From a virus: a stretch of 62,200 nt of DNA. The notes under the pieces are model-generated. The model made no database searches. It saw nothing but the letters and a program-made list of their open reading frames with translations, and had not been told where the DNA came from. The DNA lies in the IMG/VR virus record IMGVR_UViG_3300028189_000014, positions 1 to 62,200 of that record, one strand, 5' to 3'. The translations under genes were made by a program, and so were the position numbers. The first letter of the stretch is position 1. Each line of letters starts with the position of its first letter. Below, piece after piece: positions 605 to 58,665 of the stretch.

Positions 605-816
605 ATGACCCAGTAAATCATCCTAGTCATTATACTTTTTCTAAGTATGAGGTTATTGATGTGATTAACGAATGGGATTTAGGCTACGATCTAGGTAATG
701 CAGTGAAATATATTGCCAGAGCAGGTAGAAAAAACCCTGAGAAAGAGATGGAAGACATTAACAAAGCGATCTTTTATTTACAAGATTATATAAGCAGAGG
801 TAATAATGCGCCCTAA
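601..816 (+). CDS. DUF3310 family protein
   Basis: A 71-aa protein with the DUF3310 signature: VNHPSHY at the start, then EVIDVI, then GNAVKYIARAGRKNP and a final KAIFYLQ helix. The family is common in phages and is sometimes annotated as a nucleotide-kinase-like accessory; its biochemical role is not established. The start overlaps the repressor stop by four bases, suggesting translational coupling. Its last codons contain the -35, operator-like 17-mer and -10 of a possible promoter for the next gene. Confidence 0.85.
   Translation: MNDPVNHPSHYTFSKYEVIDVINEWDLGYDLGNAVKYIARAGRKNPEKEMEDINKAIFYLQDYISRGNNAP
777..806 (+). promoter_or_regulatory. Sigma70-like promoter overlapping a 17-bp near-palindrome
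   Basis: TTTACA (777-782), an 18-base spacer, then TAATAA (801-806). The 17-mer TATAAGCAGAGGTAATA (789-805) fills the spacer and the -10, an arrangement in which bound repressor would block RNA polymerase. It lies inside the end of the DUF3310 gene and directly before the ATG at 806. A leader would be very short or absent, so promoter activity is a hypothesis. Confidence 0.5.
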
Positions 817-1213
817 ATTATTGCGAAATCCAGATCCTACTTCCGCTACCGCTATATATGAATGTCCTGTTTGCAATGAAGAATTTACAGCAATTATGTA
901 TCGTATACAGCACGGTCAAAAATCATGTTCGCAGAAATGCGGGCGCGTCCTATCTAAGGCTAAACAAGTAGGGCGACCGCCTAATGCTGTACTAGGTAAA
1001 GTGTACAGCGAGTTTTCACCTGTAGATTTCAAACGTATTTGTAAGCAATTAAATATAAGCAGAGCTAATCATCACGATAAAGATCTAGTACTTATGTGGA
1101 ACGCTCGTACTGACGAGCTACTTCCTCGACTGGAGGATAAAGGCAAGAAACTAGAGATCTTAGGAGAGAACGAGGTCACGACTATGGATCGTTTAAAGGA
1201 GATATATGGATGA
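806..1213 (+). CDS. Unknown protein with N-terminal Cys4 zinc-finger-like motif
   Basis: 135 aa. CPVC (near residue 20) and a later C-x3-C pair (SCSQKC) resemble a treble-clef or zinc-ribbon knuckle. The rest is basic and helical, with a segment (FKRICKQLNISRANHHDKD) that could contact DNA. I do not recognise the family. It starts ten bases before the DUF3310 stop and ends in an ATGA overlap with the excisionase-like gene, so it is part of the lysogeny operon and may act in integration control or DNA binding. Confidence 0.7.
   Translation: MRPKLLRNPDPTSATAIYECPVCNEEFTAIMYRIQHGQKSCSQKCGRVLSKAKQVGRPPNAVLGKVYSEFSPVDFKRICKQLNISRANHHDKDLVLMWNARTDELLPRLEDKGKKLEILGENEVTTMDRLKEIYG
1054..1070 (+). 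promoter_or_regulatory. Dispersed 17-mer, intragenic copy
   Basis: TATAAGCAGAGCTAATC, one mismatch class away from the genome-wide consensus TATAAGCAGTGCTAATA. It lies inside the gene at 806-1213, about 140 bases before the excisionase-like start. No convincing -35 is seen upstream. It may be a repressor site without promoter function. Confidence 0.4.
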
Positions 1214-1512
1214 ACACATTAACCCTAACTGAAGCTGCAGCTTATTTGAAGTGCAATGCTGAGACTGTTCGAGTCAAAGCTAAAGCACGGGAAATAAAAG
1301 CAGTAAAAGTTGGGAGACAGTGGGTATTTAAAGAAGAAGACTTGTCATCTTATTTAGATAAGTTGTACGATGGGGATTTTAACACCGTGCAACCACCATG
1401 CAATACTATCAAACGGGGTCTAAATTCATTTGGTACCGATTCACCGCTCCTGACGGACGACGAGTACGAAGATCTACTAAGACCACCGACAAACGTAAGG
1501 CCCAGGAATTAG
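1210..1512 (+). CDS. Excisionase-like MerR-type HTH protein
   Basis: 100 aa. Residues ~1-50 match the excisionase-family winged helix (LTLTEAAAYLKCNAETVRVKA, then a wing with VGRQWVFKEEDL). Such proteins bend att DNA and steer the integrase toward excision, which fits the adjacent integrase and attP. A good AAGGAG site precedes ATG 1210. The last ~38 residues are read from DNA that also encodes the integrase N-terminus in another frame; they look low-complexity and are probably not under strong protein-level selection. Confidence 0.8.
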   Translation: MNTLTLTEAAAYLKCNAETVRVKAKAREIKAVKVGRQWVFKEEDLSSYLDKLYDGDFNTVQPPCNTIKRGLNSFGTDSPLLTDDEYEDLLRPPTNVRPRN

Positions 1513-2384
1513 AAGACAAGCATCGTGCCCAACTCTGGGACGAACATAAGCTAGGTACTCAACCTGAAGTTCTATGGAACACAGCATGCGTTCGTTGGGT
1601 TAAAGAAAGTACCAAGACTTCTATCAACGACGATCTCGAAAAACTCCGATGGCTGGATAAATTTCTACGCGATCAGCCGCTTCATACCATTACCACTGAT
1701 TGTATTGAACAGATCATCGAAGCTAAGTTAGCTGAAGGTGTCGCCCCCGCAACTATTAACCGCTACACCACTCTGGTAGGTTCTATCCTACGCAAAGCTC
1801 ACGGTCCCTGGCATTGTCTGAACGAACTTCCACATATACGGAAACTGAAAGAACCCGACAAACGAATACGTTGGATCACGCGAGAACAAGCAAAACTACT
1901 TATTGCCGAGTTACCTCCACACCAAAAAGCTATGGTGGAATTCAGCCTAGCTACGGGTCTAAGAGAATCAAATGTAACAGGTTTGGAGTGGTCCCAGATC
2001 TCCCCTTCTGGGAGTAAGGCATGGCTTCATCCAGACCAGACGAAGAATAGTAAACCGATGTCCGTCCCGTTTAATCCTACAGCGCAACGAGTTGTAGCAG
2101 AACGCCGAGGGATACATTCTGTGTATGTGTTTACTTTTAAAGATAAACGAATACAAAAGGCACACACTGGCGCATTTAAGAAGGCTCTAGTGAGAGCGGG
2201 TATTGAGCACTTCAGGTGGCATGACCTACGCCACACATGGGCGAGTTGGCACGTACAGAATGGTACGCCATTAAACGTTTTACAAGAACTTGGAGGTTGG
2301 AGTAGCTACGAGATGGTACTACGGTACGCTCACTTAGCACCTGACCATTTAGCAGATTATGCGAATAACATTGAGGATAAGTGA
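1398..2384 (+). CDS. int: Tyrosine recombinase (phage integrase)
   Basis: 328 aa. N-terminal arm-binding region (residues ~3-45: YYQTGSKFIWYRFTAPDGRR), SAM-like core-binding domain (~60-140) and catalytic domain (~155-328). Catalytic residues visible: Arg189 (TGLRESN), a likely Lys216, His275-x-x-Arg278 (HDLRH), Trp301 at the His/Trp position and nucleophile Tyr310 (LRYAHL). It should recombine attP at 2382-2606 with a host tRNA-His gene. Starting at 1398 keeps the arm-binding domain but overlaps the excisionase-like gene by 115 bases out of frame. No strong ribosome site is seen, so translation may be coupled to that upstream gene. Confidence 0.95.
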   Translation: MQYYQTGSKFIWYRFTAPDGRRVRRSTKTTDKRKAQELEDKHRAQLWDEHKLGTQPEVLWNTACVRWVKESTKTSINDDLEKLRWLDKFLRDQPLHTITTDCIEQIIEAKLAEGVAPATINRYTTLVGSILRKAHGPWHCLNELPHIRKLKEPDKRIRWITREQAKLLIAELPPHQKAMVEFSLATGLRESNVTGLEWSQISPSGSKAWLHPDQTKNSKPMSVPFNPTAQRVVAERRGIHSVYVFTFKDKRIQKAHTGAFKKALVRAGIEHFRWHDLRHTWASWHVQNGTPLNVLQELGGWSSYEMVLRYAHLAPDHLADYANNIEDK

Positions 2385-2606
2385 CATAATTCTGACATAG
2401 CACCGAGGAGCGGTTTTGCTAACTCGTTGATTTAATGGGGTGAACGAAGGGGCTCGAACCCTCGACAACCGGAATCACAATCCGGGGCTCTACTGGCACA
2501 CCCTATATAAATCAATATGTTACTACCTAACCCTATGTCAAAACCCAGTACAATACTGGCATAATCCACCCAAAACAACCTACCTCTGTCATAATTCTGG
2601 CATAGC
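2382..2606. other. Probable attP region with arm-type repeats
   Basis: Between the integrase stop and the converging tail gene lie six copies of TGnCATA: 2382, 2393, 2557, 2587 and 2598 in direct orientation and 2534-2540 inverted. Two pairs form an almost identical 17-bp direct repeat, CATAATTCTG(A/G)CATAGC, at 2385-2401 and 2590-2606. Within each pair the spacing is 11 bases, about one helical turn. The repeats flank the tRNA-derived core at 2436-2493, as integrase arm sites do. A perfect 6-bp inverted repeat (CCAGTA/TACTGG) lies at 2545-2559. No gene is seen here. Confidence 0.75.
2436..2493 (-). other. 3' fragment of tRNA-His (anticodon GTG), likely att core
   Basis: Read on the minus strand it gives the end of a D-arm (GTAGAGC), an anticodon stem-loop CCGGA-TTGTGAT-TCCGG with GTG at 2476-2478, a variable loop, T-arm GAGGG-TTCGAGC-CCCTT, acceptor 3' strand, discriminator C and CCA ending at 2436. 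The 5' acceptor strand and most of the D-arm are missing, so it cannot fold as a complete tRNA. It would rebuild the 3' end of the host tRNA-His gene after integration. Confidence 0.8.
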
Positions 2607-4885
2607 TAAGTGTATTTAGTTACATCCGTTATAATATACATATTAGACTTACGATTTATAGTTTTTGGGTCATAAGGAATGCTGCCATAGGATACTGAGC
2701 CCGCATCGTCATCATCGTCCCAAGGCCAAAAACCTACAGCTCCTGCATCCCAATCAGCCGAATACTCGAACCCTCCATCGTAAGTGGCCCATCCAGATTT
2801 AAATGAACTGCCTGTTATTTTAAAAGCGTTAAGATACATAACCCACCACGTCGCAACTGACTGTTGACGCTGTATACCCTCTAAAATACTATGGTAAGTG
2901 GGGATCCATCCATTCCATGTAATATACCAACCCCATAATTCATATTCACTATAACCTCTAATAGACCGCATCTGCACAGCTTGGGTAAGTGATGGAGCAG
3001 CAAACATTAAATTACCTTGCGTTAGTCCGGCAGTGATATTGGAACTAGTACTGAAACCAGCAGACCTAAAATCCCAGTCGTTCTGTGTGCTGCCCGGCGC
3101 TTGACTCCCCCCGAAAGAGTTACCGCTCCAATACCAGCGTTTAACACCTTGATCATAATAAATACCTGTAAATGTTCCGCTATCTGTAGGAGACCCCGTA
3201 CTAACAGGCGTAGCAGGTGATGTAATTGATCCGCCTGAGACAACTACTAATGGTTTTAATCGACTATCAAAAGTGGGTAGAGTAGCTGAACCTGTAGCTA
3301 TAGTAGAGAACACGTTCCAATCATAAGTGTATTCTACTGATCTATACAGCTCTTCTAAAGTAGCTGGAGTTATAGTAAGAGTTTGGTCTGTTGTGACGGC
3401 TTGAGCTGCTACCATAGTTGCGTAATAAGCGTCTCTAGCATTTTCCCAAGCAGTAGTAACTGGATTAGGCTTAGCTACTGAGTATATTACATTATTTCCT
3501 CCTGTTAGTAGCTGTTTAGCAGGCGCTCCCACTACTTCCGAGATAACCAACCAAGCTGTAGGGCTACTAACTATAGGAGTGTTATCACTATACACCCCAT
3601 AGTCAGGAGTCCCATACACATAGGTATTGAGATTAGTGTTAGCCCCTGAGTAATGTGAGTTGTACCCGTCCAATAACTTATTATACATATAAACTTCTTC
3701 GTCATACGTAGCAATCAGCGTGAGATTCTGATTAGTTATACTCGCTATATGCTGTGCATAAGCAGTTTGGTAAGCGCTATACCTCGGTTGTAAGTACGAT
3801 TTCCAACCCGAAGAATAATTGTATGTATAATAAGTGCTCCAGCCATATGCATAATTGTAGATTCCGTCAGGCGCTGCATTATAAACTGACGTAATATAGG
3901 ATATTGAAAGAGAATACCCATCTGAAGACTGAGGTGCACCTAATGGACCCCAGTATGTCGCAACCACAGGAGATACAACATTTAACAATGTCTGACGACT
4001 ACTACTTTGCCAAAAACTATATAAACTATTAGCTACGCACCAGTTGTAATCATTTAGATAGTTTAAATATTTCATCACATCTTGCCCAAAGACCTGAGTG
4101 CCATGACCGTTATGCATAACCACGTTTTGTGATGCCATATACGTATCTAGCCCACTCCAAGTACGTTCTTCCATAGTACTTACAACTAACGTAGGGTATG
4201 TTGGAGCTATAGGTTTAGGGTAGTAACCATTAGAATGCGAGCCAATATCAATCCAAATATCTCCTAGTGCGGGATTAGCTGGGGCGCTAGCACTTCCCGT
4301 CAACGTTGCGGTACTTCCAGCAATCTGTAAAGGCGTAGGACAAGTACTCAAAGCTGCATTAGCTGTATTAACACTACTCTCGGTTGTTAACGTAGCCTCA
4401 ACTGTTCTACTCTGAGCTATAGTCATTACTTTTTCTACTGTAGGGCCACGTAATGGGATATCACCGAATAACTGCATCCCGTAACTTTCCGTAGACGGGG
4501 TTATATAAGTATTAGGTAGAAATAGATGGAGTTCTGGAGTTAAAGTACTATCACTACCTGATTGAATAACTTCGAATTCCCAAGTGGTCGTCTGTGATAT
4601 GTAACCTTGCCTAATAACTGCATGCCACTTCGTATAATCACTAGGTCTGATAAATACAGTAGGGACTCCTTCTGTAACATATGAATATGAATATAACACA
4701 TGCCCATCAATTGAATCATTCGTCCCTGAGTATCCCGGAAAATCCGTCGGCCCCACTAAAGAAGCTATAAATGTAGCCTGTCCTGCATAGTGTAATGATT
4801 GTAATCCACTATCTATAAGAACTTGGCTATCTAAAGTAGATCCTGTTCTATAATGATCTGAGAATACTTTAACCCCCAGACTCAT
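2606..4885 (-). CDS. Large tail/structural protein, Tyr- and Ser/Thr-rich
   Basis: 759 aa, last gene of the leftward virion block. The sequence is rich in aromatic and small polar residues, typical of beta-rich distal tail parts, with a run of acidic residues (WPWDDDDDAG) near the C-terminus. No catalytic motif or family recognised. Its start overlaps the stop of the 93-aa gene upstream (ATGA-type junction), so it is co-translated with the tail genes at 4882-8181. A tail fibre or tip component is inferred from position only. Confidence 0.7.
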   Translation of the reverse strand: MSLGVKVFSDHYRTGSTLDSQVLIDSGLQSLHYAGQATFIASLVGPTDFPGYSGTNDSIDGHVLYSYSYVTEGVPTVFIRPSDYTKWHAVIRQGYISQTTTWEFEVIQSGSDSTLTPELHLFLPNTYITPSTESYGMQLFGDIPLRGPTVEKVMTIAQSRTVEATLTTESSVNTANAALSTCPTPLQIAGSTATLTGSASAPANPALGDIWIDIGSHSNGYYPKPIAPTYPTLVVSTMEERTWSGLDTYMASQNVVMHNGHGTQVFGQDVMKYLNYLNDYNWCVANSLYSFWQSSSRQTLLNVVSPVVATYWGPLGAPQSSDGYSLSISYITSVYNAAPDGIYNYAYGWSTYYTYNYSSGWKSYLQPRYSAYQTAYAQHIASITNQNLTLIATYDEEVYMYNKLLDGYNSHYSGANTNLNTYVYGTPDYGVYSDNTPIVSSPTAWLVISEVVGAPAKQLLTGGNNVIYSVAKPNPVTTAWENARDAYYATMVAAQAVTTDQTLTITPATLEELYRSVEYTYDWNVFSTIATGSATLPTFDSRLKPLVVVSGGSITSPATPVSTGSPTDSGTFTGIYYDQGVKRWYWSGNSFGGSQAPGSTQNDWDFRSAGFSTSSNITAGLTQGNLMFAAPSLTQAVQMRSIRGYSEYELWGWYITWNGWIPTYHSILEGIQRQQSVATWWVMYLNAFKITGSSFKSGWATYDGGFEYSADWDAGAVGFWPWDDDDDAGSVSYGSIPYDPKTINRKSNMYIITDVTKYT

Positions 4886-5163
4886 CGTGCGAACACCATT
4901 ATGAGCGAGTTGACAGTTCCTGTGTTATCGACAGAAACTGTACTACCCGCAACAGTAACATTCGACACATAGGCCTCTTGGTTATTGGGGATAAAATCTA
5001 GTTGGAGCTGTAGAGTGGACAATTCCATCCCTGCTGCTGCTTGATTTATAAAGCTAGTAGCTATACCGGGACGAGCAGCAAAAAAGCCTACAAGGCTCCA
5101 TGCGGTATCTTTTGTCCCGATACCCATAGCTCCAGAGGCATCAAACGTTTCAACTCCGAACAT
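4882..5163 (-). CDS. Small tail-associated protein
   Basis: 93 aa, no recognised domain; composition suits a beta-sandwich structural protein. It overlaps the tail gene upstream by 14 bases and the 759-aa gene downstream by four, so the three are translated as a unit. It may be a small fibre cap or connector, inferred from context. Confidence 0.65.
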   Translation of the reverse strand: MFGVETFDASGAMGIGTKDTAWSLVGFFAARPGIATSFINQAAAGMELSTLQLQLDFIPNNQEAYVSNVTVAGSTVSVDNTGTVNSLIMVFAR

Positions 5164-8661: not shown

Positions 8662-8860
8662 AATTTATCTCAATTCTATTTGGACGCACAGCGCTATCCA
8701 CGACCTTTCGTACTGCTGTTCTCCCAGCACTGGGAATTTTGCAATATTTACTTACTGCGACATTAGCTGTCTCAGCGATAATCCTTGGCATACAACCCGT
8801 TAACAGCAATGGTAATATAATCACTGCTAATAAAATTAGATGAGTTCTTTTGGAGAACAT
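8648..8860 (-). CDS. Small lipoprotein of the lysis cluster (spanin/Rz1-like role possible)
   Basis: 70 aa. N-terminal signal peptide with basic start, hydrophobic core (LILLAVIILPLLL) and lipobox LTGC, so the protein should be lipidated at Cys23 and anchored in the outer membrane. It sits between the lipase and endolysin genes with short overlaps, the usual place for an o-spanin. No matching inner-membrane i-spanin is obvious, though the 147-aa coiled-coil membrane protein at 9975-10418 could serve. Confidence 0.7.
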   Translation of the reverse strand: MFSKRTHLILLAVIILPLLLTGCMPRIIAETANVAVSKYCKIPSAGRTAVRKVVDSAVRPNRIEINCAED

Positions 8861-11987: not shown

Positions 11988-11995
11988 AGTCTTCT

Positions 11996-12901: not shown

Positions 12902-12913
12902 TGTATTTCCTCG

Positions 12914-19471: not shown

Positions 19472-19504
19472 TATAAGCATAGCTTATTTTATTGGGGAAA
19501 TCAA
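19472..19504 (-). promoter_or_regulatory. Sigma70-like promoter with 17-bp near-palindrome
   Basis: On the minus strand: TTGATT (19499-19504), 17-base spacer, TATGCT (19476-19481). The 17-mer at 19472-19488 covers the -10 and much of the spacer. It is placed to drive the tail-fibre genes from 19426 leftward, immediately after the giant gene's stop at 19501. Same layout as before the small terminase and capsid genes. Confidence 0.6.
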
Positions 19505-31952: not shown

Positions 31953-31982
31953 ATATTACCACTGCTTATATAATGAAGTCAA
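31953..31982 (-). promoter_or_regulatory. Strong sigma70-like promoter with 17-bp near-palindrome (capsid)
   Basis: On the minus strand: TTGACT (31977-31982), 18-base spacer, TAATAT (31953-31958). The 17-mer TATAAGCAGTGGTAATA (31954-31970) lies exactly across the spacer and -10. It is the closest of all copies to the sigma70 consensus and would give a leader of about 220 nt for the capsid gene. Confidence 0.65.
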
Positions 31983-35099: not shown

Positions 35100-35116
35100 T
35101 ATTAGCGTTGCTTATA
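35100..35116 (-). promoter_or_regulatory. Dispersed 17-mer upstream of the Cys-rich and portal genes
   Basis: TATAAGCAACGCTAATA on the minus strand, ending 21 bases before the ATG at 35079 and straddling the stop of the 283-aa gene. The -10-like TAATAT is present; the -35 position reads TTAGGT with 18-base spacing, a poor match. Confidence 0.5.
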
Positions 35117-38833: not shown

Positions 38834-38866
38834 CATAAGCATAGCTTATATTGAAAAATTTAGCAA
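38834..38866 (-). promoter_or_regulatory. Sigma70-like promoter with 17-bp near-palindrome (late block)
   Basis: On the minus strand: TTGCTA (38861-38866), 17-base spacer, TATGCT (38838-38843). The near-palindrome TATAAGCTATGCTTATG covers 38834-38850. It sits 20 bases before the small terminase start and is the natural entry promoter for the packaging and head genes. Confidence 0.6.
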
Positions 38867-39705: not shown

Positions 39706-39731
39706 CTCTGGTCTTAAGAACAGGGTTGAAG
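39706..39731 (+). other. Degenerate 3' hairpin with TTGAAG
   Basis: CTCTG-GTCT-TA-AGAA-CAGGG followed by TTGAAG, three bases after a stop codon. It keeps the outer stem and trailing motif of the hairpins at 39487, 40390 and 41727 but has a different inner stem and loop. Confidence 0.45.
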
Positions 39732-40250
39732 GACAACATGTGGACTACATGTTGAAATTCAACCTGTTACGCTCCTAAGCCCATGATTCATAAGGCAAAA
39801 AAACCCAAAAAAGGCCATATTATGGCAAAAGACAACATGTGGGGTTCGCCTTAGTAGCATATACGTATATTAGTGTGTTTTTTCTTAGTATTTCTTTGTT
39901 TTTTTATTAGTTTTAATAGGTACTAGTCTTTAATAATATGTAGTCCTATAAAAAACAAGGAAATTCATTAGTAATATCAATAACTTAGAGCGTAACAGGT
40001 TGTCCAAAAACCTGTAGTCCACATGTTACCACATGTTACGCTCTGTAACTCGTTGATTCTTAACGAGTTTTTCACCTACTGATGACCCCTAAAAACACCT
40101 GTTTTGGTACATCTGTAGTCCTTGTACATTTTTTGTACAATACTTAAAGTATTACATTAACTTCGTGGAACATAAATTGTTTCACAACCTGTAGTCCTTT
40201 TTGTTCAACCTGTAGTCCTTTTTTAAATCCATTTAACTAGGAGAAATACC
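39732..40250. other. Repeat-rich AT-rich region, candidate replication origin
   Basis: No gene is seen in about 500 bases. Six TGTAGTCC octamers (39939, 40013, 40114, 40190, 40211 direct; 39742-39749 inverted), a 15-bp inverted pair (39760-39774 and 39988-40002, CAACCTGTTACGCTC), tandem CACATGTTAC (40020-40029, 40030-40039) and nested inverted repeats (CAACATGT/ACATGTTG 39734-39754) flank a very AT-rich stretch at about 39850-39985. This is the usual composition of a phage or plasmid origin: iterons beside an easily melted tract. Alternatively it is a recombination or transcription control region. Confidence 0.55.
40047..40072 (+). terminator. Hairpin with U-tract inside the repeat region
   Basis: AACTCGTT-gattctt-AACGAGTT followed by TTTC: a perfect 8-bp stem, the last pairs merging with a short T-run. 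A weak to moderate rightward terminator. Confidence 0.5.
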
Positions 40251-40437: not shown

Positions 40438-40575
40438 ATGTTCACCATCAAATCAATACAGCTAGGTTATATATTTGCCTACAGAATCTGGGATGTAAAG
40501 GCTAACCGCCCTGTATCCCCATTGTTCGCTGAGCTTGCACAAGCTGAGCGTGAATTGGCTATCTTAGAATTATAA
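40438..40575 (+). CDS. 45-aa protein
   Basis: ATG 40438 with AAAGGAG upstream. Product MFTIKSIQLGYIFAYRIWDV with a helical C-terminus (LFAELAQAERELAILEL). Overlaps the 17-bp element at 40571 by a few bases and is followed by a terminator. Function unknown. Confidence 0.6.
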   Translation: MFTIKSIQLGYIFAYRIWDVKANRPVSPLFAELAQAERELAILEL

Positions 40576-40587
40576 GCATAGCTAATA
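40571..40587 (+). promoter_or_regulatory. Dispersed 17-mer before terminator and gene 40647
   Basis: TATAAGCATAGCTAATA. It overlaps the stop of the 45-aa gene and lies upstream of a terminator hairpin and the gene at 40647. The -35 position (TATCTT, 17-base spacing) is poor. Confidence 0.45.
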
Positions 40588-41756: not shown

Positions 41757-41798
41757 TACAAACTATGTGATTAATCAATTAAATTGGAGTACATCATC

Positions 41799-43469
41799 AT
41801 GGAAGCTCAGATATTAGAGTATCTAAATAAGCAATACAGCTATGAGAGCAAAGCGCTCCGTATAGCTAAGTTGAAAGAGCGTCAGCTAACACCGCTAGCC
41901 ATCTCGGCTAAGCTATGGACGGCACTCTGCCGCACCCAGCAGGACAAAACTGCAATACAGAACGTAGCCACACGCCTAGGTACTAGCCTCGGCTATACGG
42001 ATCAGCTCGACGCAGTTAAAACTGGCGCTGAGCTGTTGGCAATCTGTCAACATCAAGGATGGTACACGCTTGATATGACCCGTTATGGCACCTATGTGCT
42101 ACCTAACTTACCTAAAGAAGCGTTGATAAAATCCAACTTCCCCACCTTCAAGCCCAACAAATGGAGTAGTAACCATAATGGTGAAGACTCTATTATATTA
42201 GGTGGCGGGATGAAACATCACAATCAAGCACAGTCGTATGACGTGCTTAATATCCTACAGAATATAGAATGGTGTATAGATACCGAGGTTCTACGTTATG
42301 AGAAGAACCCGAAAGCTAAGCACCACTCCCAGAGAACCCGTGCTGACTTCAATGCTATATATAACGACTTAATAGGTCGTGGCTTCTACTTCAAATGGCG
42401 TTACGACATGCGCGGGCGTGGATTCATCCACAGTTATTTCTTAAACTTCCAAAGTCATGAATATGACAAGGCTCTGTTATCACCTCGTAAAAAGGTAATT
42501 ACCGAGAACCTCGGTAACCTTAAGATAGCCGTAGCTAACGAAGCAGGGCACGATAAGCTCCTGTTCGAAGAGCGTATAGCCTGGTTCGATGCACAGCTTG
42601 AGAAAGGCTTCAATACCGAAGAATTCAAATACCCCATACTAGGACGCAAAGCATTACGAGCCTACGCCCTAGCAGAACAGGGACTGCCTAGTAATTACAT
42701 GATGGGGCTAGATGCTACTGCCTCGGGCTTACAGATCATGGCGGCATTAATTGGCTGTAAGATCACAGCGAAAGCCTGCAACTTGATCTATTCAGGCACA
42801 CGAGAGGATCTGTACACACTCGTAGCTGATACGATGAATGCTGAGCTATCACCAGCTGACTATGTAGACCGTAACATGGTGAAAGATCCTGTAATGACTC
42901 ACTATTACAATAGTATCAAAGAACCACGTAAAGCGTTCAACGATGCACAGCTACAGGCGTTCTACAACGCATTGGATGGGCTCTGCCCCGGTGCCGTAGA
43001 CGTTATGGATACGATCAACGCCTTCTGGAATAAGCGGACACTTGAGCACAGTTGGACTCTCCCTGACGGGCACCGCTCAGTTGTCCCTGTCATCGAAACA
43101 GTAGACAAACGTGTTGAGGTAGATGAGCTGAATCACCGTCGCTTCGCTTATATCTACAAAAAGAATATGCCATCACGTAAGTCAACGTCCTTAGTGCCTA
43201 ACATTATTCACTCGGTCGATGCCTACGTTGCCCGTGAGATGGTAAGGCGCTGTCCGTTCGACATTGTGCATATTTTCGATTGCTTCTACTTCTACCCAGA
43301 TAATATGGACGAAGCCTCACGTATATACCGTGAGATCCTAGCAGATATCGCACAGAGCAATCTGTTAGCTGACATCTTATCGGAAATTAGCGGTAAGAAT
43401 ATAAGCATTGCTAAAGATAGTGACGATTTACACATCGACATCCTTACTAGCAAATATGCGATTTCTTAG
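41799..43469 (+). CDS. Compact T7-type single-subunit RNA polymerase
   Basis: 556 aa from ATG 41799 (a TTG at 41784 coincides with its ribosome site). Core motifs of the family are present: Y202-D-M-R-G-R207 (T7 MDWRGR), motif A D305-ATASGLQ, motif B R358-x3-K362-x7-Y370 with exactly the T7 spacing (R627, K631, Y639), H471-S (T7 H784) and motif C D494 in HIFDCFYF. The His before the motif C Asp (T7 H811) is Phe here. T7 polymerase is 883 aa, so most of the N-terminal promoter and RNA-binding domain is reduced. It should transcribe phage genes from its own promoters; promoter recognition must differ from T7. Confidence 0.9.
   Translation: MEAQILEYLNKQYSYESKALRIAKLKERQLTPLAISAKLWTALCRTQQDKTAIQNVATRLGTSLGYTDQLDAVKTGAELLAICQHQGWYTLDMTRYGTYVLPNLPKEALIKSNFPTFKPNKWSSNHNGEDSIILGGGMKHHNQAQSYDVLNILQNIEWCIDTEVLRYEKNPKAKHHSQRTRADFNAIYNDLIGRGFYFKWRYDMRGRGFIHSYFLNFQSHEYDKALLSPRKKVITENLGNLKIAVANEAGHDKLLFEERIAWFDAQLEKGFNTEEFKYPILGRKALRAYALAEQGLPSNYMMGLDATASGLQIMAALIGCKITAKACNLIYSGTREDLYTLVADTMNAELSPADYVDRNMVKDPVMTHYYNSIKEPRKAFNDAQLQAFYNALDGLCPGAVDVMDTINAFWNKRTLEHSWTLPDGHRSVVPVIETVDKRVEVDELNHRRFAYIYKKNMPSRKSTSLVPNIIHSVDAYVAREMVRRCPFDIVHIFDCFYFYPDNMDEASRIYREILADIAQSNLLADILSEISGKNISIAKDSDDLHIDILTSKYAIS
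43400..43416 (+). promoter_or_regulatory. Dispersed 17-mer inside the RNA polymerase gene end
   Basis: TATAAGCATTGCTAAAG, 120 bases before the next gene. A weaker match in its right half; possible operator only. Confidence 0.35.
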
Positions 43470-44432: not shown

Positions 44433-44672
44433 ATGAGCCAACGTGATTGGGACGAATTAGAAAAAGAAAAACAGAATATCATAGACGGTAAGAGCATTAC
44501 ACATCTTTGGACCGTGCAGGATATTTTTCAGCAGAGCGAAAATCATTCCGAAGACGGAAAAGTCTGCATTGAAGAAGTTGATGCTTTGCGAATACTAGAA
44601 GCTATCAGATGGCCTGATCCTGATTACAATGACTATGACATAATCAGTGACATGATATCGGACTGCACTTAA
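44433..44672 (+). CDS. MSxxDW-family small protein, member 1
   Basis: 79 aa, MSQRDWDELEKEKQNIIDGK then THLWTVQDIFQ. Shares the layout MSxxDW...I-x-x-G...(V/I)(W)(S/T)..D(I/V) with the genes at 45033 and 60580, 16 kb away. Preceded by AAGGAGGTGTGAG, a variant of the junction used in the 59.7-61.3 kb cluster. Acidic; function unknown. Confidence 0.7.
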   Translation: MSQRDWDELEKEKQNIIDGKSITHLWTVQDIFQQSENHSEDGKVCIEEVDALRILEAIRWPDPDYNDYDIISDMISDCT

Positions 44673-45032: not shown

Positions 45033-45248
45033 ATGAGCCTAGCTGATTGGCAAGACGTGCAAAGCGATAGAGAGAACATCATAACAGGTATAGCTGTAGC
45101 AGAAGTCTGGAGTACTACAGATATACACAACGCTACTGATTATAAACTAACAAATGAGCAGGCAATGTATATATTAGCGTTGCTTATTAAAGACCATGAT
45201 GCGAATATAGAGAAAGATATACAACGTCTAACCAAAATTCATTTTTAG
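45033..45248 (+). CDS. MSxxDW-family small protein, member 2
   Basis: 71 aa, MSLADWQDVQSDRENIITGI, then VAEVWSTTDIHNATDY, clearly homologous to 44433 and 60580. Its 3' half contains an antisense copy of the 17-bp element (45172-45188). Acidic C-terminal helix. Function unknown. Confidence 0.7.
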   Translation: MSLADWQDVQSDRENIITGIAVAEVWSTTDIHNATDYKLTNEQAMYILALLIKDHDANIEKDIQRLTKIHF

Positions 45249-45641: not shown

Positions 45642-45839
45642 ATGAACGAGGAACTAAGTACTTTCGAAGAAGACATACTCTATCTAAAAACCAAATTACA
45701 TCGAGACTCTATAAGCCAAGAAGTCTTAGATGTTTACGCCTTGAAGATCGCAGATCGCGTTCTACGAGGACGAGAAACTGTGTCCCAAGCTCGCGTTAAA
45801 GAGCTTAAAAATATAAGGAATGCTTATGGGTTATCGTAG
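45642..45839 (+). CDS. 65-aa helical protein
   Basis: ATG 45642 with TAGGAGGTCGT upstream. Acidic N-terminus (MNEELSTFEEDILYLKTKLH), basic C-terminus (RVKELKNIRNAYGLS). Coiled-coil or helical pair. Overlaps the next gene by 14 bases. Confidence 0.6.
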   Translation: MNEELSTFEEDILYLKTKLHRDSISQEVLDVYALKIADRVLRGRETVSQARVKELKNIRNAYGLS

Positions 45840-47981: not shown

Positions 47982-47987
47982 AAAAAA

Positions 47988-48025
47988 AGCTCTGCCTATA
48001 TCACTAAATATAAGCAGAGCTGATA
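47988..48025. other. Hairpin with 17-mer; terminator-like on the minus strand
   Basis: AGCTCTGC C TATAT / ATATA A GCAGAGCT (47988-48021) preceded on the plus strand by nine A. Read on the minus strand the stem is followed by nine U, a good terminator for leftward transcripts, although no leftward gene is visible here. It contains the 17-mer TATAAGCAGAGCTGATA (48009-48025). Confidence 0.5.
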
Positions 48026-48073
48026 TTCCATAGCCAAGGGAGGGGTTATGGAATAGAGAGTAAGCGGTATTAA

Positions 48074-48090
48074 TATTAGCAATACTTATG
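48074..48090 (-). promoter_or_regulatory. Dispersed 17-mer before gene 48104
   Basis: Minus-strand CATAAGTATTGCTAATA, 14 bases before ATG 48104. Together with 48009 it makes a pair of elements in the 122-base gap, 65 bases apart, about six helical turns. Confidence 0.45.
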
Positions 48091-48103
48091 GGAGAAAGCA
48101 ATA

Positions 48104-48952: not shown

Positions 48953-48961
48953 GAGGACTAA

Positions 48962-50128: not shown

Positions 50129-50130
50129 AC

Positions 50131-51179: not shown

Positions 51180-51265
51180 CCTTAGTTGGAGCTTTGTTAC
51201 TACTCCCCCTATTCCTTTGCATTGGAGGTTTTTTAATCCTTAAATATCTAATAACAAAAAAATGA
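51137..51265 (+). CDS. 42-aa single-span membrane peptide
   Basis: ATG 51137 with ACAGGAGAGAAAGT upstream; runs out of frame through the previous gene's end and its stop overlaps the DNA polymerase start (ATGA). One hydrophobic span (LVGALLLLPLFLCIGGFLIL) with basic ends. Unknown role. Confidence 0.5.
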   Translation: MYFLRRNYSNKNEVTLVGALLLLPLFLCIGGFLILKYLITKK

Positions 51266-53130: not shown

Positions 53131-53158
53131 AAAGGACTATTATGAGATACTGCCAAAA

Positions 53159-53175
53159 TATAAGCAGTACTTATA
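53159..53175 (+). promoter_or_regulatory. Dispersed 17-mer before the primase-helicase gene
   Basis: TATAAGCAGTACTTATA, with perfect 6-bp arms TATAAG/CTTATA, ending 16 bases before ATG 53191. -10-like TACTTAT is within it; no good -35 is seen. Confidence 0.5.
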
Positions 53176-53190
53176 CGCCAAGGGGACATT

Positions 53191-55668
53191 ATGCCGAAAA
53201 TCACATTCTTAGAGGCAGCTAACAGAACGCGCCTATCGAAAGAATTCTCAAAACAAGGTAAGCAATCTTACCCCATGTATGTAAATAAATTTACTTCACA
53301 CATACATGACATCCCCGCTACCAATGTAGGGTGGGATACCCAATACCAACTAATGAAAAAACATGCTCCTTTAGGACACTGCTTGCTTAAAGGTCAACTC
53401 GACAGACCTTTGGTTAACGAACCCCGCAAAGGACACACAGATCGTTACCAAAAAACTGAAACCTTAGTCCTAGATATCGACGGACTCGAACTCGAAGGAT
53501 ATACGATACCTGAAAGTATAAGCAGTACTGATATTAAAGATATTGCCGAACGAATCGTAAAACTATTACCCCCTATATTCTCTAACTCCTCATACATAGC
53601 CACAGCATCAGCTTCGTTAGGTCTTAAACAAAACCTAATCTGCATGCATTTAGATTTCTACTTATCCGCAGAAGTAAATCCAATGCGATTAAAAGACTGG
53701 ATCACTTGGTTAAATCTAAACATCAAAGATTTTAGTACTCAGGTGTCCCTTAATACTTCAGGGCTCAGTTTATCCTACCCCATTGATAGAACATTAGCTC
53801 AAAACGATAAACTAATATATTGTGCACCCCCTACATTCATACCTCCTTTGATTGACCCTGTAGAAGAACGTATCGTCTTAGTTAAAAAAGATAATCCTAC
53901 AGTAGATATCTCAATATTATTGAAGCAGGTAAATGTCGAAGCTAACACCCAAGCGATTAAAGATACAGTCATCGCCTTACGTAAATCAGCAGGACTAAAA
54001 CGACGCACCCCCAAAACTAGATATGTTACCTTAGAGGACGGACATAAAACCGAAGTCTTAGAGAACCCAGATCAAGCACGAATTACTTACGCCTACCACA
54101 CTATAGAATACTGCTACTTCAATATTAATAATGGTGACAGTAACGCGTATTGGTGCCCCATAGGCAACCCACGTATCGTCTACACTTTCAAAGACGAGCC
54201 CCCATTTGAAATGCAGCGAGTAGATGCTGATTTCCACGAATGGTATACCGAAGAATTTAAAGATGAAATACGCGGTGCTGCGAACCTACGCCCTTTCATC
54301 TTTAGAGATTTCTGGACTGACGTGCACTATAACGCAGTGTTCGATGAGAATAATAACAACATTCCTCGTATCGCTTCAGCAAATAAATCCAATCTAGGCG
54401 ACTTCATGTTAGAGCATGGTTTGGCTATGCCCGAACCTATCCCGACATGGGATTATGTATTCGATCCATCAACTGATAAGCAGATAGATTTCCAACGACA
54501 GTGGCTTAATAAATACCAACCAACAGACTATCTACTTAATGCTAAGCCTCTTGAGAATATAGAACTAACTTATGGAGACGCTACATTACTGCAGAATTAT
54601 TGCCCTACTATATATAAAATAATATGGCATCTGGTCGGTGACAGCTCCTTAGAATATGAACATTTCATAAACTGGCTAGCCTATGGTGTAAAACGTCGAT
54701 GTAAAACTACAACCGCATGGGTCTTCAGTGGAGTAGAAGGCACAGGTAAAGGAGTCTTCTACCATAAAGTATTAGTACCCCTAATCGGGAACCGCTACTC
54801 GGTCATGCGAAAACTATCTGATTTTGACGATCAGTTTAATGCGTGGCAAGAGACCAACTTAATCACTGTGGTGGATGAAGCGCGTATAAATGACGTAGCC
54901 TCATCATCTCGCACGATGAACTTCCTGAAGAATTTTATCACCGAGCCTTATGGCAAGGTACGTGTGATGCGTGTCGATAGTCTAGTGGATAAACCGCTAT
55001 ATAACAACGTTATGTTCTACACGAATAATCAAGATGCTTTGAAGCTATCAGCTACAGATCGACGCTTTAATATAGGCATACATCAAGAGCTCTCATTAAT
55101 CCGTGCATATCCTAAAATTAGACAGGAAATAGATGACTTATTACCTAAAGAATTGCAGATATTCACTAATTTCCTGACCACCTATAGTGAAGACGAGGAT
55201 CAAGCACGCACTCCTTTAGAGAACGAAGCCAAATTGCAAATGCGCGAAGCGAGCATGACGTGGATAGAAGAGTATAGCTTCGCTATTAGAACAGGGAACT
55301 TAGACTTCTTCGTAAAATTCGTTGATATGGAACCTACAGCCATAAATGAGATCACCACTTTCGAAGCAGCTCAACGATTTATAAAAAGCTGGATAGCCGA
55401 TGTAGATCAACGGAAATCGTTCGTCACTGTAGCCCAACTACGAACGGTATATACCTGCTTAAACGACGCAACTATATCAGCTGTGAAATTCGGAAAATTA
55501 TTAGCCCGTAACGGAATAATTACCATTAATAGGCGGGGGAAAGGCCGAGGACTTGTTGTTGACTGGAAACTTGATACCTACGAACGCACCCCTTTAATCA
55601 ACGAACACTTCTCAGATCGAGATAAGGAAGCATACAAATGTCAGAACGAACCACAACAGACGCACTAG
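53191..55668 (+). CDS. Primase-helicase (AEP-like N-domain plus SF3 helicase)
   Basis: 825 aa. Residues ~90-230 contain VLDIDGL (D95, D97) and a helical region like archaeo-eukaryotic primase/prim-pol domains. A PriCT-like linker follows, then an SF3 helicase: Walker A GVEGTGKG (~514-521), Walker B LITVVDEAR (~560-568), and a sensor region NNVMFYTNNQDALKLS. Related fused enzymes (deep-sea phage NrS-1 type) start and unwind DNA in one polypeptide. The catalytic primase acid and metal residues beyond D95/D97 need alignment. Confidence 0.85.
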   Translation: MPKITFLEAANRTRLSKEFSKQGKQSYPMYVNKFTSHIHDIPATNVGWDTQYQLMKKHAPLGHCLLKGQLDRPLVNEPRKGHTDRYQKTETLVLDIDGLELEGYTIPESISSTDIKDIAERIVKLLPPIFSNSSYIATASASLGLKQNLICMHLDFYLSAEVNPMRLKDWITWLNLNIKDFSTQVSLNTSGLSLSYPIDRTLAQNDKLIYCAPPTFIPPLIDPVEERIVLVKKDNPTVDISILLKQVNVEANTQAIKDTVIALRKSAGLKRRTPKTRYVTLEDGHKTEVLENPDQARITYAYHTIEYCYFNINNGDSNAYWCPIGNPRIVYTFKDEPPFEMQRVDADFHEWYTEEFKDEIRGAANLRPFIFRDFWTDVHYNAVFDENNNNIPRIASANKSNLGDFMLEHGLAMPEPIPTWDYVFDPSTDKQIDFQRQWLNKYQPTDYLLNAKPLENIELTYGDATLLQNYCPTIYKIIWHLVGDSSLEYEHFINWLAYGVKRRCKTTTAWVFSGVEGTGKGVFYHKVLVPLIGNRYSVMRKLSDFDDQFNAWQETNLITVVDEARINDVASSSRTMNFLKNFITEPYGKVRVMRVDSLVDKPLYNNVMFYTNNQDALKLSATDRRFNIGIHQELSLIRAYPKIRQEIDDLLPKELQIFTNFLTTYSEDEDQARTPLENEAKLQMREASMTWIEEYSFAIRTGNLDFFVKFVDMEPTAINEITTFEAAQRFIKSWIADVDQRKSFVTVAQLRTVYTCLNDATISAVKFGKLLARNGIITINRRGKGRGLVVDWKLDTYERTPLINEHFSDRDKEAYKCQNEPQQTH
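53517..53533 (+). promoter_or_regulatory. Dispersed 17-mer inside the primase-helicase gene
   Basis: TATAAGCAGTACTGATA within codons ~109-115. May be chance or an internal repressor site. Confidence 0.3.
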
Positions 55669-55874
55669 AAACAAATTTCGAAGAGCTCTCAGAACGAGAT
55701 CAATTCGTCGCTATCAGCGCGATCCAGTTCATGGCTGATAATATTGGCGAAATACTAGATAGTGCCGAAGAACGCGGTGCTACTGGTGACGAACTCTTTG
55801 ATGATATTGATGACTTTATAAAAACAACACTTACGCAAATATACGGAACCCCAGACACAACCATCACCCACTAG
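55638..55874 (+). CDS. 78-aa acidic protein
   Basis: Overlaps the primase-helicase end by 31 bases. Acidic helical sequence (TNFEELSERDQFVAISAIQF, FDDIDDFIKTTLTQIYG). Unknown; position in the replication block suggests a small accessory. Confidence 0.6.
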   Translation: MSERTTTDALETNFEELSERDQFVAISAIQFMADNIGEILDSAEERGATGDELFDDIDDFIKTTLTQIYGTPDTTITH

Positions 55875-55882
55875 GAGGCCCT

Positions 55883-56572
55883 ATGGCTGAAGAAGAACGT
55901 ATACCTACTTGGTCATACTCAGCGTTATCTACTTTCGAGAAATGTCCTTTTCGGAGTTATCTACAGAAAATAAAGAAAATCCAAGAACCGCAACACCCTG
56001 CAGCTAAACGAGGAACTGATATCCACGATCAAGCCGAACGCTATGTACGTGGCGAGATCGAGTTCCCTAAATCCTTGAAGAAGTTTACAGATAGTTTTGA
56101 AACTCTACGTAAATTATTTGAAATAGGACAAGTCGAACTAGAGGGGGACTGGGGCTTTACTCAGGATTGGGAGATCTGTGAGTGGCGAGCTGAAGATGTC
56201 TGGGCACGTATTAAACTAGATGCTATGGTTCGGATGGACGATACATCAGCTAGAGTTATTGATTATAAAACAGGGCGTAAATTCGGAAACGAAATAGCAC
56301 ATGGACAACAAGCTCTTCTATATGCCATAGCTTCTTTCATACGCTATCCTGAACTAGAGTTTATACGTACTGAACTCTGGTACCTAGACCATGCCGCTGT
56401 ATCTGAACAAACCTACACACGCGCACAGGCTATGCTGTTCTATCCCCGCTGGGTAGAACGCGCCACCATCATGACTACGGCTACTGATTTCCCACCCAAA
56501 CCGTCCAAACAAGCCTGCAGGTGGTGTTCATACCGCACATCAGGCGATTGTGACTACGGTGTAGATTTATAA
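55883..56572 (+). CDS. Cas4/RecB-like PD-(D/E)XK exonuclease with Fe-S cluster
   Basis: 229 aa. Cys in FEKCPFRSY, then H in GTDIHDQAERY, catalytic VIDYKTG, motif QQALLYAI and a C-terminal C-x2-C-x7-C (CRWCSYRTSGDC). The four Cys fit a 4Fe-4S cluster as in Cas4 and AddB-type nucleases. Probably used in phage recombination or DNA end processing. Ribosome site TAGGAGG precedes it. Confidence 0.88.
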   Translation: MAEEERIPTWSYSALSTFEKCPFRSYLQKIKKIQEPQHPAAKRGTDIHDQAERYVRGEIEFPKSLKKFTDSFETLRKLFEIGQVELEGDWGFTQDWEICEWRAEDVWARIKLDAMVRMDDTSARVIDYKTGRKFGNEIAHGQQALLYAIASFIRYPELEFIRTELWYLDHAAVSEQTYTRAQAMLFYPRWVERATIMTTATDFPPKPSKQACRWCSYRTSGDCDYGVDL

Positions 56573-56586
56573 CTAAGGAGGATCTA

Positions 56587-56832
56587 ATGAACTTTGACAA
56601 ATATAGAAGAGCTTTTAAAGCACTTCAAGAAGATAAATTCGTAAAATATTCGACCCATGTAAGCTGTGCCTTAATGATCTTAGAAGCATTAAAACTATTT
56701 CTAAATTTCACTCTGGACTTTGTTTTATACATCGTCTTCTTCGGCATCCTACTTAAACTTATATGGACGATTATTACTTATGAAAGCGCATCTAATATAC
56801 AAGACGATCTCGGTACTATCCACAGTAATTAA
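56587..56832 (+). CDS. 81-aa membrane protein
   Basis: One or two spans (ALMILEALKLFLNFTLDFVL, YIVFFGILLKLIWTIITY) with charged ends. Strong AAGGAGGATCTA site. Unknown; unusual inside a replication block. Confidence 0.6.
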   Translation: MNFDKYRRAFKALQEDKFVKYSTHVSCALMILEALKLFLNFTLDFVLYIVFFGILLKLIWTIITYESASNIQDDLGTIHSN

Positions 56833-56905
56833 AGCCCTACAATTAGCTAGTATGGTTGCTGAAGCGCGTCAGCATTTTAAATATAAAAAACATCGGAGAC
56901 GCTAA
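56780..56905 (+). CDS. 41-aa basic helical peptide (uncertain)
   Basis: ATG 56780 overlaps the membrane gene by 53 bases; stop overlaps the helicase start (TAATG). MKAHLIYKTISVLSTVIKAL then basic KYKKHRRR. No ribosome site of its own; coupling possible. Confidence 0.4.
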   Translation: MKAHLIYKTISVLSTVIKALQLASMVAEARQHFKYKKHRRR

Positions 56906-58290
56906 TGCTACCTTTATACGAGCACCAGCAACAAACTGTCGATTTTCTGGCGAAAGCTCCTCGAGCATTGATTACGTCAGATCCTGGCACTGGGAAAACT
57001 CGAGCGGTATTAGAGCGATACTACCAAGCTCGTATAAATAAAGAATCTTACGGACGTATGCTAGTATTAGCCCCGTTATCTATATTAAAACCTTCATGGG
57101 GGGATGATATAGATACTTTCACCCCGGGGCTAACCTATTCGATAGCTTATGCAAAGAATCGAATGCAAGCATTCCAAATGAACACTGATATAGTGATAAC
57201 AAATCACGACGCAGTTAAATGGATCGCTAATAATGCAGAAGATATATTGCAGCGATTCGAATGGCTAGTAATTGATGAATTCACTGCATACAAACGCAGA
57301 ACGAGCCAACGAAGTAAAGCAGCCGCTTATATCCGAGAAGCCTTTAAATACAGAATAGCTCTTTCAGGAACCCCTAACTCGAACACTATTCTAGATATAT
57401 GGCACCCTACTCTTATAGTAGATGACGGTGAACGCCTAGGACAACAATTCTTCAGCTTTAGAGCACAAGTTTGTGAGCCTAAACAAGTAGGCGCGGGAAC
57501 TCATATGGTGCAATGGCTAGACAAAGAAGATGCAGAAGCCCGAGTTGCTGCATCCCTTAAAGATATCACTATCCGCCATCGGTTCGAAGACTGTCTAACC
57601 ATACCCCCTAACACCAAGAAACTAATATACACCGACCTCTCTAAGAAACAGGCGAAAGCCTACAACGAACTAAAACGAGATGCTTTGCTAGAACTCGATA
57701 ATGGCGATTATCTCGAAGCCATCCACGCAGGAGTTCTAGTAAAAAAACTACTGCAAGTAGCGAGCGGTGCGGTATACGATAACGAAGGAAACTCTCATGT
57801 TATAGATACCGCCCGTTATGAACTAATTATATCGCTTATAAAAGAACGAACCCATTCTATAGTAGCTTTTAACTGGACACACGAACGCGACGCTTTATGT
57901 AAATTAGCAGATAAAGAAGGACTAACATTTGCTGTAATAGATGGGTCAGTGAGTATATCTGAACGTACTGAGATTGTGAAACACTACCAAAAAGGAGCCT
58001 ACCAAGTGCTCTTTGCCCACCCACAATCAGCAGCACACGGGCTTACTCTAACGAAAGGTGTCACGACTATATGGGCGAGTCCGACATATAACGCTGAGCA
58101 CTTCCAGCAATTCAATAGGAGGATATATCGCGCAGGACAAACAAAAAAAACAGAAACCATATTGATCGCTGCACGAGGGACATGGGAAGTAGCCGTCTAT
58201 GACAAACTAGACGGTAAGTTAAATCGTATGGATTCTTTATTAAATTTATTTAAACAACTAACGGAGTTGGAAGATGGAAACAATAGGTGA
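56905..58290 (+). CDS. SNF2-type DEAD/H helicase-like ATPase
   Basis: 461 aa. Walker A DPGTGKT (26-32), motif II LVIDEFTAYK (D124-E125), motif III ALSGTPNSN, and C-terminal motifs SAAHGLTLTKGVTTIW and NRRIYRAGQTKKTETI, including the Arg finger region. Phage members act in recombination, replication restart or DNA remodelling. Its end overlaps the 122-aa gene by 17 bases. Confidence 0.9.
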   Translation: MLPLYEHQQQTVDFLAKAPRALITSDPGTGKTRAVLERYYQARINKESYGRMLVLAPLSILKPSWGDDIDTFTPGLTYSIAYAKNRMQAFQMNTDIVITNHDAVKWIANNAEDILQRFEWLVIDEFTAYKRRTSQRSKAAAYIREAFKYRIALSGTPNSNTILDIWHPTLIVDDGERLGQQFFSFRAQVCEPKQVGAGTHMVQWLDKEDAEARVAASLKDITIRHRFEDCLTIPPNTKKLIYTDLSKKQAKAYNELKRDALLELDNGDYLEAIHAGVLVKKLLQVASGAVYDNEGNSHVIDTARYELIISLIKERTHSIVAFNWTHERDALCKLADKEGLTFAVIDGSVSISERTEIVKHYQKGAYQVLFAHPQSAAHGLTLTKGVTTIWASPTYNAEHFQQFNRRIYRAGQTKKTETILIAARGTWEVAVYDKLDGKLNRMDSLLNLFKQLTELEDGNNR

Positions 58291-58642
58291 ACTTATTGAA
58301 CAACTTAGAAAAAAACGTGAAGAACTAACTAAACTAGAAACTACTAAAAAAGGACTCTCGAAGGATAAAATAGTTCTAGAAGGTAAATTACTAGAGGCGA
58401 TGGATAGTCAAAACATAACTTCGATGCGGGGTGATAAAGCGACTGTATCTATTTCAGAAGCGGTGGTACCAACTGTTGATAGTTGGGATGATTTCTACAA
58501 TTACATACTAGAAACTAAGCAACCATATTTACTAGAACGCAGACCTGCTGTCACAGCTTTTAGAGAAATACTAGAGACAGGAAATGAAGTCCCCGGACTT
58601 AAACCTTTTACACGAAGAACAGTTAACTTTCGTTCTAGATGA
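58274..58642 (+). CDS. 122-aa coiled-coil protein
   Basis: N-terminal coiled coil (LIEQLRKKREELTKLETTKK) followed by a compact domain ending RRTVNFRSR. Resembles small phage proteins that protect DNA ends or bind a helicase, but not assigned. Overlaps the SNF2 gene. Confidence 0.6.
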   Translation: METIGELIEQLRKKREELTKLETTKKGLSKDKIVLEGKLLEAMDSQNITSMRGDKATVSISEAVVPTVDSWDDFYNYILETKQPYLLERRPAVTAFREILETGNEVPGLKPFTRRTVNFRSR

Positions 58643-58648
58643 TGATAA

Positions 58649-58665
58649 TATAAGCAGTGCTAATA
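58649..58665 (+). promoter_or_regulatory. Dispersed 17-mer, consensus copy, before the SSB-like gene
   Basis: TATAAGCAGTGCTAATA, the exact consensus, ending 18 bases before ATG 58683. No convincing -35 upstream. Confidence 0.5.

Follow-up and report, generated by a model that had tools for sequence, protein, structure and literature searches.

A genome-wide array of 17-base-pair palindromes as probable operators of a lambda CI-type repressor in a syntenic phage family

The virus record IMGVR_UViG_3300028189_000014 of IMG/VR, analyzed here over its whole length of 62,200 bases (the window), carries a 17-base-pair (bp) near-palindrome dispersed over the genome. A preliminary description of this DNA had left two readings in competition, in which the palindromes are either operators of a CI-like repressor or promoters of a phage RNA polymerase. 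From sequence comparison, we consider it very probable that the phage's own repressor, a protein of the lambda CI type, binds them as operators. The operator reading draws on the association of such arrays with the repressor gene in related phages, on symmetric half-sites, on lambda CI being the closest solved relative of the protein, and on a motif that follows the recognition helix. A broader proposal is close to an even call that leans slightly against: that a whole-genome operator array replaces the lambda-type cascade in these phages, with fixed positions and with copies that change along with helix residues 48 and 49, one record (G018) being caught between two specificities.

Palindromic Sites in the Window

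All 14 sites listed in the preliminary description exist in the window. The motif string quoted there, at up to three mismatches, gives 17 matches on both strands, compared with a mean of 0.30 and a maximum of 3 in shuffled sequences. It recovers 12 of the 14 listed sites; the remaining two, at 19472 and 38834, are farther from the string yet lie one mismatch from the symmetric pattern TATAAGCNNNGCTWATA. With a symmetric weight matrix, 16 sites score at least 16 bits, and 20 shuffles yield 0.1 on average and never more than 1, a comparison that is partly circular since the matrix was trained on the listed sites. Palindrome searches that were not given the motif also recover the array. Two of the strong sites (8816 and 45812) are additions to the first list, a weaker one at 466 falls inside the repressor gene, and those at 336 and 46796 are marginal. 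The element was rightly called a near-palindrome: it is a two-fold symmetric 17-mer with the consensus TATWAGCANTGCTWATA, in which T3, A5, T13, and A15 are invariant across the 14 listed sites (symmetrized counts) and the center is free.

The earlier remark that copies gather at gene borders also holds. Eight of the 16 strong sites are centered in noncoding DNA, which makes up 6.4% of the genome by our own gene list (binomial P = 2e-6), three touch gene ends (789, 35100, and 45812), and five are intragenic. The remark that most copies point along the gene proved weak, with 9 of 12 asymmetric sites doing so by our tally (two-sided P = 0.15), and site orientation was dropped as evidence.

The predicted sites, given without strand, begin with a weak one inside the repressor gene at 466–482 (15.0 bits; one difference in the relative G002), followed by 789–805, which abuts the start codon of the 806 gene and is identical in G002. 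Upstream of genes lie 19472–19488 (before the 19052–19426 gene; identical in G002 and G001, flanks 77% identical), 31954–31970 in the capsid promoter region, 35100–35116 (before the 34888–35079 gene and the portal gene; no differences in G004, flanks 75% identical), and 38834–38850, 19 bases before the small terminase gene and unchanged in G003, G004, G005, and G006. The site at 45812–45828 (17.6 bits) overlaps the start of the 45820 gene and shows no differences in G003, where the flanks are 78% identical. The noncoding sites 40571–40587 and 48009–48025, the latter upstream of the 48104 gene, match both string and matrix, as does 48074–48090, 13 bases before the same gene. The site at 53159–53175 lies between the DNA polymerase and DUF5906 primase genes (one difference in G006, flanks 69% identical), and the best match of all, 58649–58665 (25.2 bits), lies 17 bases before the 58683 gene. 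The intragenic sites are 1054–1070 and 45172–45188, both matching string and matrix, 8816–8832 (19.3 bits), 43400–43416 inside the RNA polymerase gene (no differences in G001, G002, and G003), and 53517–53533 inside the DUF5906 gene (one difference in G006, flanks 70% identical). Many sites are thus better kept than their flanks in relatives, as in the capsid site, with 0 of 17 positions changed in G006 and flanks 69% identical; others vary, such as 8816, with its three differences in G002.

Arrays in Relatives with and without the Repressor Gene

Syntenic relatives came from scans of bacterial and viral contigs in which the queries were the phage RNA polymerase, terminase, repressor, PD-(D/E)XK nuclease, and DNA polymerase. 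The longer loci were mostly followed, out of 55 terminase, 8 DNA polymerase, and 18 genome loci and 80 nuclease loci kept of 318; marine records were picked by length and by the presence or absence of a repressor match. Prophage relatives occur in Vreelandella massiliensis, V. jeotgali, Pasteurella testudinis, Spirabiliibacterium mucosae, Aggregatibacter kilianii, Pseudomonas fluorescens, and Shewanella gaetbuli. Seventeen records have a full repressor gene, located downstream of VRR-NUC: the window (G000), G002, G006, G018, G020, G022, G026, G027, G032, G036, and G038–G044. Ten have no repressor gene: G013, G051–G055, Aeromonas phage phiA008, G031, G033, and G034. Excluded from both groups are fragments (G001, G003–G005, G007–G012, G014, G016, and G017), the distant G019, the near-duplicates G025, G029, and G030, and G037. 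Relatedness among the records makes all P values optimistic.

In the main test, matrices were grown from five 17-bp seeds in each record and, for comparison, in six dinucleotide-shuffled versions of it. All 13 records whose repressor has a Q/H-class recognition helix yield 9–19 sites, compared with at most 5 in shuffles: 19 in the window, G002, and G032, 18 in G018 and G043, 17 in G036 and G040, 16 in G044, 15 in G041, 14 in G038, 13 in G006 and G042, and 9 in G039. None of the ten repressor-free records gives the 17-bp array (0–3 sites, shuffles up to 6). Seeds of 19 bp find 11 sites in G020 (shuffles at most 4) and 12 in G027 (shuffles at most 6), counts that are not specific because such seeds drift to unrelated words.

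A blind search of noncoding DNA agrees with this partition. It finds an array of at least four sites in 14 of the 17 full-repressor records and in none of 11 others, these being the ten without the gene plus G015, whose gene is truncated (P = 2e-5, with related records, a cut of four chosen after the results, and only gaps of 3 and 5 covered). The full-repressor records below the cut are G018, G022, and G026, the last with three sites. On the combined sequence evidence we regard 15 records as firm array carriers; the case for G026 comes chiefly from the gap test described below, and G022 is unconvincing. As for controls, reversed sequence is useless for de novo palindrome discovery, a reversed palindrome being a palindrome, and shuffles were used instead. 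For matrices, too, reversal is a weaker control than shuffling, as drifted matrices pass it. In GC-rich records, codon-like patterns overwhelm palindrome counts made over the whole sequence.

We note that in G015 (L082) and G030, a prophage in Vreelandella jeotgali, the repressor gene is a 100-amino-acid frame without a helix-turn-helix (HTH); G015 retains 11 TATWCGC-type sites, and such a prophage is perhaps decaying. In the fragments G016 and G017, PF00940, PF00717, and PF01381 were not found, and TATWCGC sites number 10 (control 0) and 6 (control 3), respectively.

The Repressor Protein

The repressor gene spans the ends of the record on the plus strand (62048–62200 and 1–604) and encodes 208 amino acids in total; in G002 it is unbroken. 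Its product matches HTH_3 at 35.3 bits (cutoff 23) and Peptidase_S24 (PF00717) at 31.2 bits (cutoff 23.3). A profile of 19 family repressors has the lambda repressor 3bdn as its best match among solved structures (E = 9e-17). The AlphaFold model of the G002 repressor, which is 95% identical to that of the window, has a mean predicted local distance difference test score (pLDDT) of 92 and a predicted template modeling score (pTM) of 0.61. Chains of lambda CI rank with the top Foldseek matches of this model, which aligns with the lambda repressor–operator chain 1lmb_3 (target TM 0.85, root-mean-square deviation 1.4) and with the lambda CI C-terminal domain 1f39 (target TM 0.66). Both a lambda-type N-terminal HTH and a C-terminal S24/LexA-like domain are found. 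By eye from alignments, the window repressor keeps Gln 33 and Gln 44 (lambda numbering). The likely catalytic Ser of the S24 domain, likewise by eye, is present in the window but is Thr in G006 and G018, and no AG or CG cleavage pair was seen in the window's linker. Because of that Thr, autocleavage is doubtful in the repressor family.

In G018, G027, G032, G036, and G040, an operator lies about 60–110 bases before the first aligned repressor residue, which suggests autoregulation.

Motif Changes and the Recognition Helix

Motifs differ by repressor lineage (TATWAGC, TATTAGY, TATWCGC, TAMWCGC, TATTACAT, and TATAACY), often at the same gene borders. The gap test used homologous genes to define four gaps, two of them upstream of the capsid and small terminase genes and two downstream of the DNA polymerase and 58274 genes, and looked in each phage for a single palindrome common to these gaps. 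In 9 of the 17 full-repressor records this palindrome beats all 400 shuffles, with seven half-sites in all: TATAAGC in G000, G002, and G006, TATACGC in G018, TAAACGC in G032, TAGTAGT in G036, TATTACA in G020, TTATAAC in G027, and TTATACC in G026 (0 of 400 shuffles). G015 passes narrowly. Apart from one case discussed below, the repressor-free records included in the test fail, G033 narrowly (11 of 400 shuffles).

These motif differences can be set against the helix. Repressors with Q at helix position 49 (lambda numbering; H in two marine sequences) have G at half-site base 6, and those with R or K have C. Within the Q class, base 5 is A where position 48 is S, and it is C where position 48 is A or T. 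The half-site bases are counted from the outer TAT and the code was read from tables. A site measures 17 bp in the Q class; in G020, G026, and G027 it measures 19 bp, which places base 6 at a different distance from the center; R or K at position 49 occurs in four repressors (G020, G022, G026, and G027). Base 5 is mixed in G018: of its 40 half-sites, 12 have A there and 26 have C. Several operators in G020 (L091, L092) are tandem pairs 20 bp apart, which suggests cooperative binding.

Overlap of the Sites with Sigma70-Type Promoter Elements

The preliminary description had also seen the palindrome fill the spacer and −10 of four sigma70-like promoters. Such promoters can be written at those places; singly they reach 8 or 9 of 12 consensus positions, which is near chance, as 36% of random places in the window reach 8 and 5% reach 9. 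On this ground we rejected the view that each window site, taken alone, reads as a promoter. The claim becomes convincing only across phages. From 93 oriented sites upstream of recognized genes, 87 were left after removal of near-identical flanks. The word TTG occurs exactly 19 bases before the palindrome center in 21 of these, with a mean of 1.45 per offset (P = 1e-18, for a word chosen after inspecting the sequences, a general TTGACA profile having been weak beforehand). This peak is confined to the gene strand, the opposite strand reaching its maximum of 10 at offset 0. TAATAT begins 4 bases past the center in 20 of the 87 sites and in 12 on the opposite strand, as expected of a palindrome. 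By gene, TTG at −21 to −18 is found in 13 of 18 capsid, 4 of 6 SNF2, 4 of 13 small-terminase, 3 of 14 DUF5906, and 0 of 6 nuclease sites. The capsid site at 31954 in the window reads, on the minus strand, TTGACT, 18 bases, TAATAT. Across phages these offsets amount to a −35 and a −10 separated by 17 bases, the operator covering spacer and −10, an overlap seen in some of the sites and most clearly at the capsid gene. The conflict between operator and promoter is then only apparent, because the operator would lie on a host-type promoter.

As a separate observation, the weak site at 466–482 coincides with a sigma70-like promoter, TTGAGA, 16 bases, TATAAT (11 of 12 consensus positions, the best of 17 sites scored on the gene strand), which points to the DUF3310, 806, and integrase genes.

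In the mechanism we propose, a repressor dimer would bind each symmetric site through its HTH domains and, where the site covers a spacer and −10, would keep host RNA polymerase off the promoter. Several promoters, among them late ones, would be closed simultaneously, and genes for early functions, replication, packaging, and the capsid would each be silenced directly in the lysogen, with no single early switch and antiterminator cascade. Intragenic sites may serve as roadblocks or for titration. Binding, occupancy by dimers, repression, and superinfection immunity are all predicted.

Alternative Explanations

Several observations weigh against the operator reading. Nearly a third of the strong window sites (5 of 16) are intragenic, the window repressor gene has no strong operator immediately upstream, and TTG at −21 to −18 accompanies only 28 of the 87 upstream sites. 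G022 has a full repressor and no convincing array: its gap test result was reached by 80 of 400 shuffles, and it shows one site at 14 bits, three with 19-bp seeds (shuffles at most 4), and six with a longer matrix. In G026 the 19-bp count is thin (6, shuffle maximum 5), with three noncoding sites in the blind search, and in G018 the array is not the top word of that search, though 17-bp seeds give 18 sites. The drift of 19-bp seeds to unrelated words produces 20 sites in G051, 8 each in G053 and G013, and 28 in G044. Seven marine repressor-bearing records (G038–G044) fail the gap test, though an array is present elsewhere: their TATTAGY arrays stand at overlapping yet different borders, those of the capsid, DUF5906, nuclease, SNF2, and DUF3310 genes. 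The repressor-free G034 has a GC-rich shared palindrome that no shuffle of 400 equaled in the gap test, and the repressor-free G033 has three noncoding sites of another palindrome (0 of 40 shuffles, blind search). Finally, the helix code rests on few lineages, and three of the four R/K cases are prophages of Pasteurellaceae, a family that includes Aggregatibacter.

The repressor-free G053 has five matches to one fixed pattern, compared with 3.0 in shuffles. The other palindromic words in G034, G033, G051, G053, and G013 may reflect either codon-like repeats or arrays for different regulators.

The alternative that survives best keeps the repressor and changes its action: the sites could be stoperators, at which the repressor mainly blocks elongation, as in L5, rather than acting on promoters. 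Intragenic sites fit this idea, and two of them, 43400 and 53517, differ at 0–1 positions in relatives whose flanks are 70–87% identical. We nevertheless consider it unlikely, as the window's sites are symmetric, show no significant orientation, and in some cases lie on promoter elements. The L5 sites are instead asymmetric 13-mers oriented with transcription and bound by a monomer with two DNA-binding domains (PMC6550527, PMC9283540).

A second possibility is that the main binder is another phage regulator inherited with the repressor, either a Cro-like protein or the HTH_17 protein encoded at 1210–1512. Lambda Cro shares the operators of CI, and the link seen between array and repressor gene is one of association. 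The motif, however, varies with the CI recognition helix; tblastn homologues of the HTH_17 gene occur in 3 of 18 nonwindow records of one set and 0 of 14 of another; and inspection saw no Cro-like gene beside the window repressor. We judge a different regulator to be very improbable.

The RNA polymerase promoters of the preliminary description fare worse still. The window does encode a candidate, a single-subunit RNA polymerase of 561 amino acids resembling N4 RNAPII (41784–43469, plus strand; PF00940, phrog_2051), several sites lie near start codons, and the 9 of 12 asymmetric sites along the gene would suit a promoter. The motif occurs without the polymerase, however: 12 of the 15 firm carriers have no polymerase homologue (by PF00940 for G018 and G020 and by tblastn for the rest). 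Among the records compared, the polymerase was detected only in G006 and in the clade of the window; G009 gave a weak, partial tblastn match that PF00940 does not confirm. The site is a symmetric inverted repeat with no significant orientation bias, and the signal beside the sites across phages is a sigma70 −35/−10 pair. This reading therefore retains hardly any probability. Sites for a host regulator, or for DNA organization or partition, would account for the number and spread of copies and are the least credible of all, since the motif differs between phages while many positions are kept, the 17-bp array was not found in the ten repressor-free relatives, and sites fall on promoter elements.

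Comparison with Known Systems

With the operator reading preferred, lambda CI is the natural comparison: it too is an HTH and S24 repressor with a 17-bp near-palindrome ending in TAT...ATA. Lambda has six operators in two clusters, whereas the window has about 16 sites genome-wide, with late and structural genes included. In the Streptomyces phage phiC31, dispersed intergenic inverted repeats of about 17 bp are bound by the phage repressor; both the repressor and the host group differ from those of the window.

Dispersed repressor sites are established in three further systems. P1 C1 has 22 operators of 17 bp, asymmetric and dispersed over the genome (PMC8546580). The dispersed 17-bp sites are a likeness; the difference is that the window's sites are symmetric and paired with a lambda-CI-type protein. 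L5-type mycobacteriophages have 20–30 repressor sites genome-wide, with motifs that diverge along with repressor distances (PMC6550527). The window's symmetric 17-mer, aligned with the gene in 9 of 12 cases, does not share the oriented, asymmetric form of the L5 site. In SPbeta, a repeated element (SPBRE) in promoter regions over the prophage is bound by the master repressor MrpR; SPBRE is a 15-bp motif and MrpR has a tyrosine-recombinase fold (PMC10516654). Among papers in the open PubMed Central (PMC) literature, judged by titles and abstract openings, we found none that describes an array of this kind for these phages. Many-site repression is already known from P1, L5, and phiC31; what is new is the version with a lambda-type repressor.

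The syntenic family offers a natural series of repressor–operator pairs that includes contigs of uncultured viruses as well as prophages of named Vreelandella, Pseudomonas, Shewanella, and Pasteurellaceae genomes. It makes testable how immunity specificity shifts when at least a dozen sites must shift too. The operator reading predicts a capsid promoter directly repressed by a lambda-type repressor, and repressor genes can be matched to candidate operators by sequence alone.

Other Features of the Genome

The ends of the window overlap by 130 nucleotides with one mismatch and presumably denote a circular genome of about 62,070 bases. A tyrosine integrase gene (1398–2384, plus strand; PF00589, 102.5 bits) marks a temperate lifestyle. 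It adjoins a stretch at 2433–2493 with 85% identity to an annotated E. coli tRNA-His, the presumed attP core. Integrases were found in 11 of 20 records searched; the six marine records lacking a repressor gave none, and neither did the repressor-bearing G018, G020, and G039. The minus strand carries the terminase, portal, and capsid genes, the last named by us from place and sequence, and the plus strand carries the replication genes. A search with 25,000 bases of the window gave no near-identity match among named phages; the best terminase relative among these is that of Aeromonas phage phiA008, at 54% identity over 84% of the protein.

The match to the single-chain window polymerase extends, in several named N4-like phages, across genes annotated as small and large subunits. 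N4 also has a virion RNA polymerase that uses hairpin promoters; a protein of this type was considered and rejected for the window, as its 2331-amino-acid protein has no such domain in Pfam at E 0.01.

The AT-rich noncoding stretch 39729–40220 holds five AACCTGTAGTCC-like 12-mers and a 40-nucleotide inverted repeat (83% complementary) and is a possible replication origin. Over the whole window, TAGCTAnnnTAGCTA-like places number 24 at up to two mismatches, compared with 3.2 expected from base composition. Small look-alike genes at 44433, 45033, and 60580, whose products by eye start with MSQ.DW or similar, are probably paralogues.

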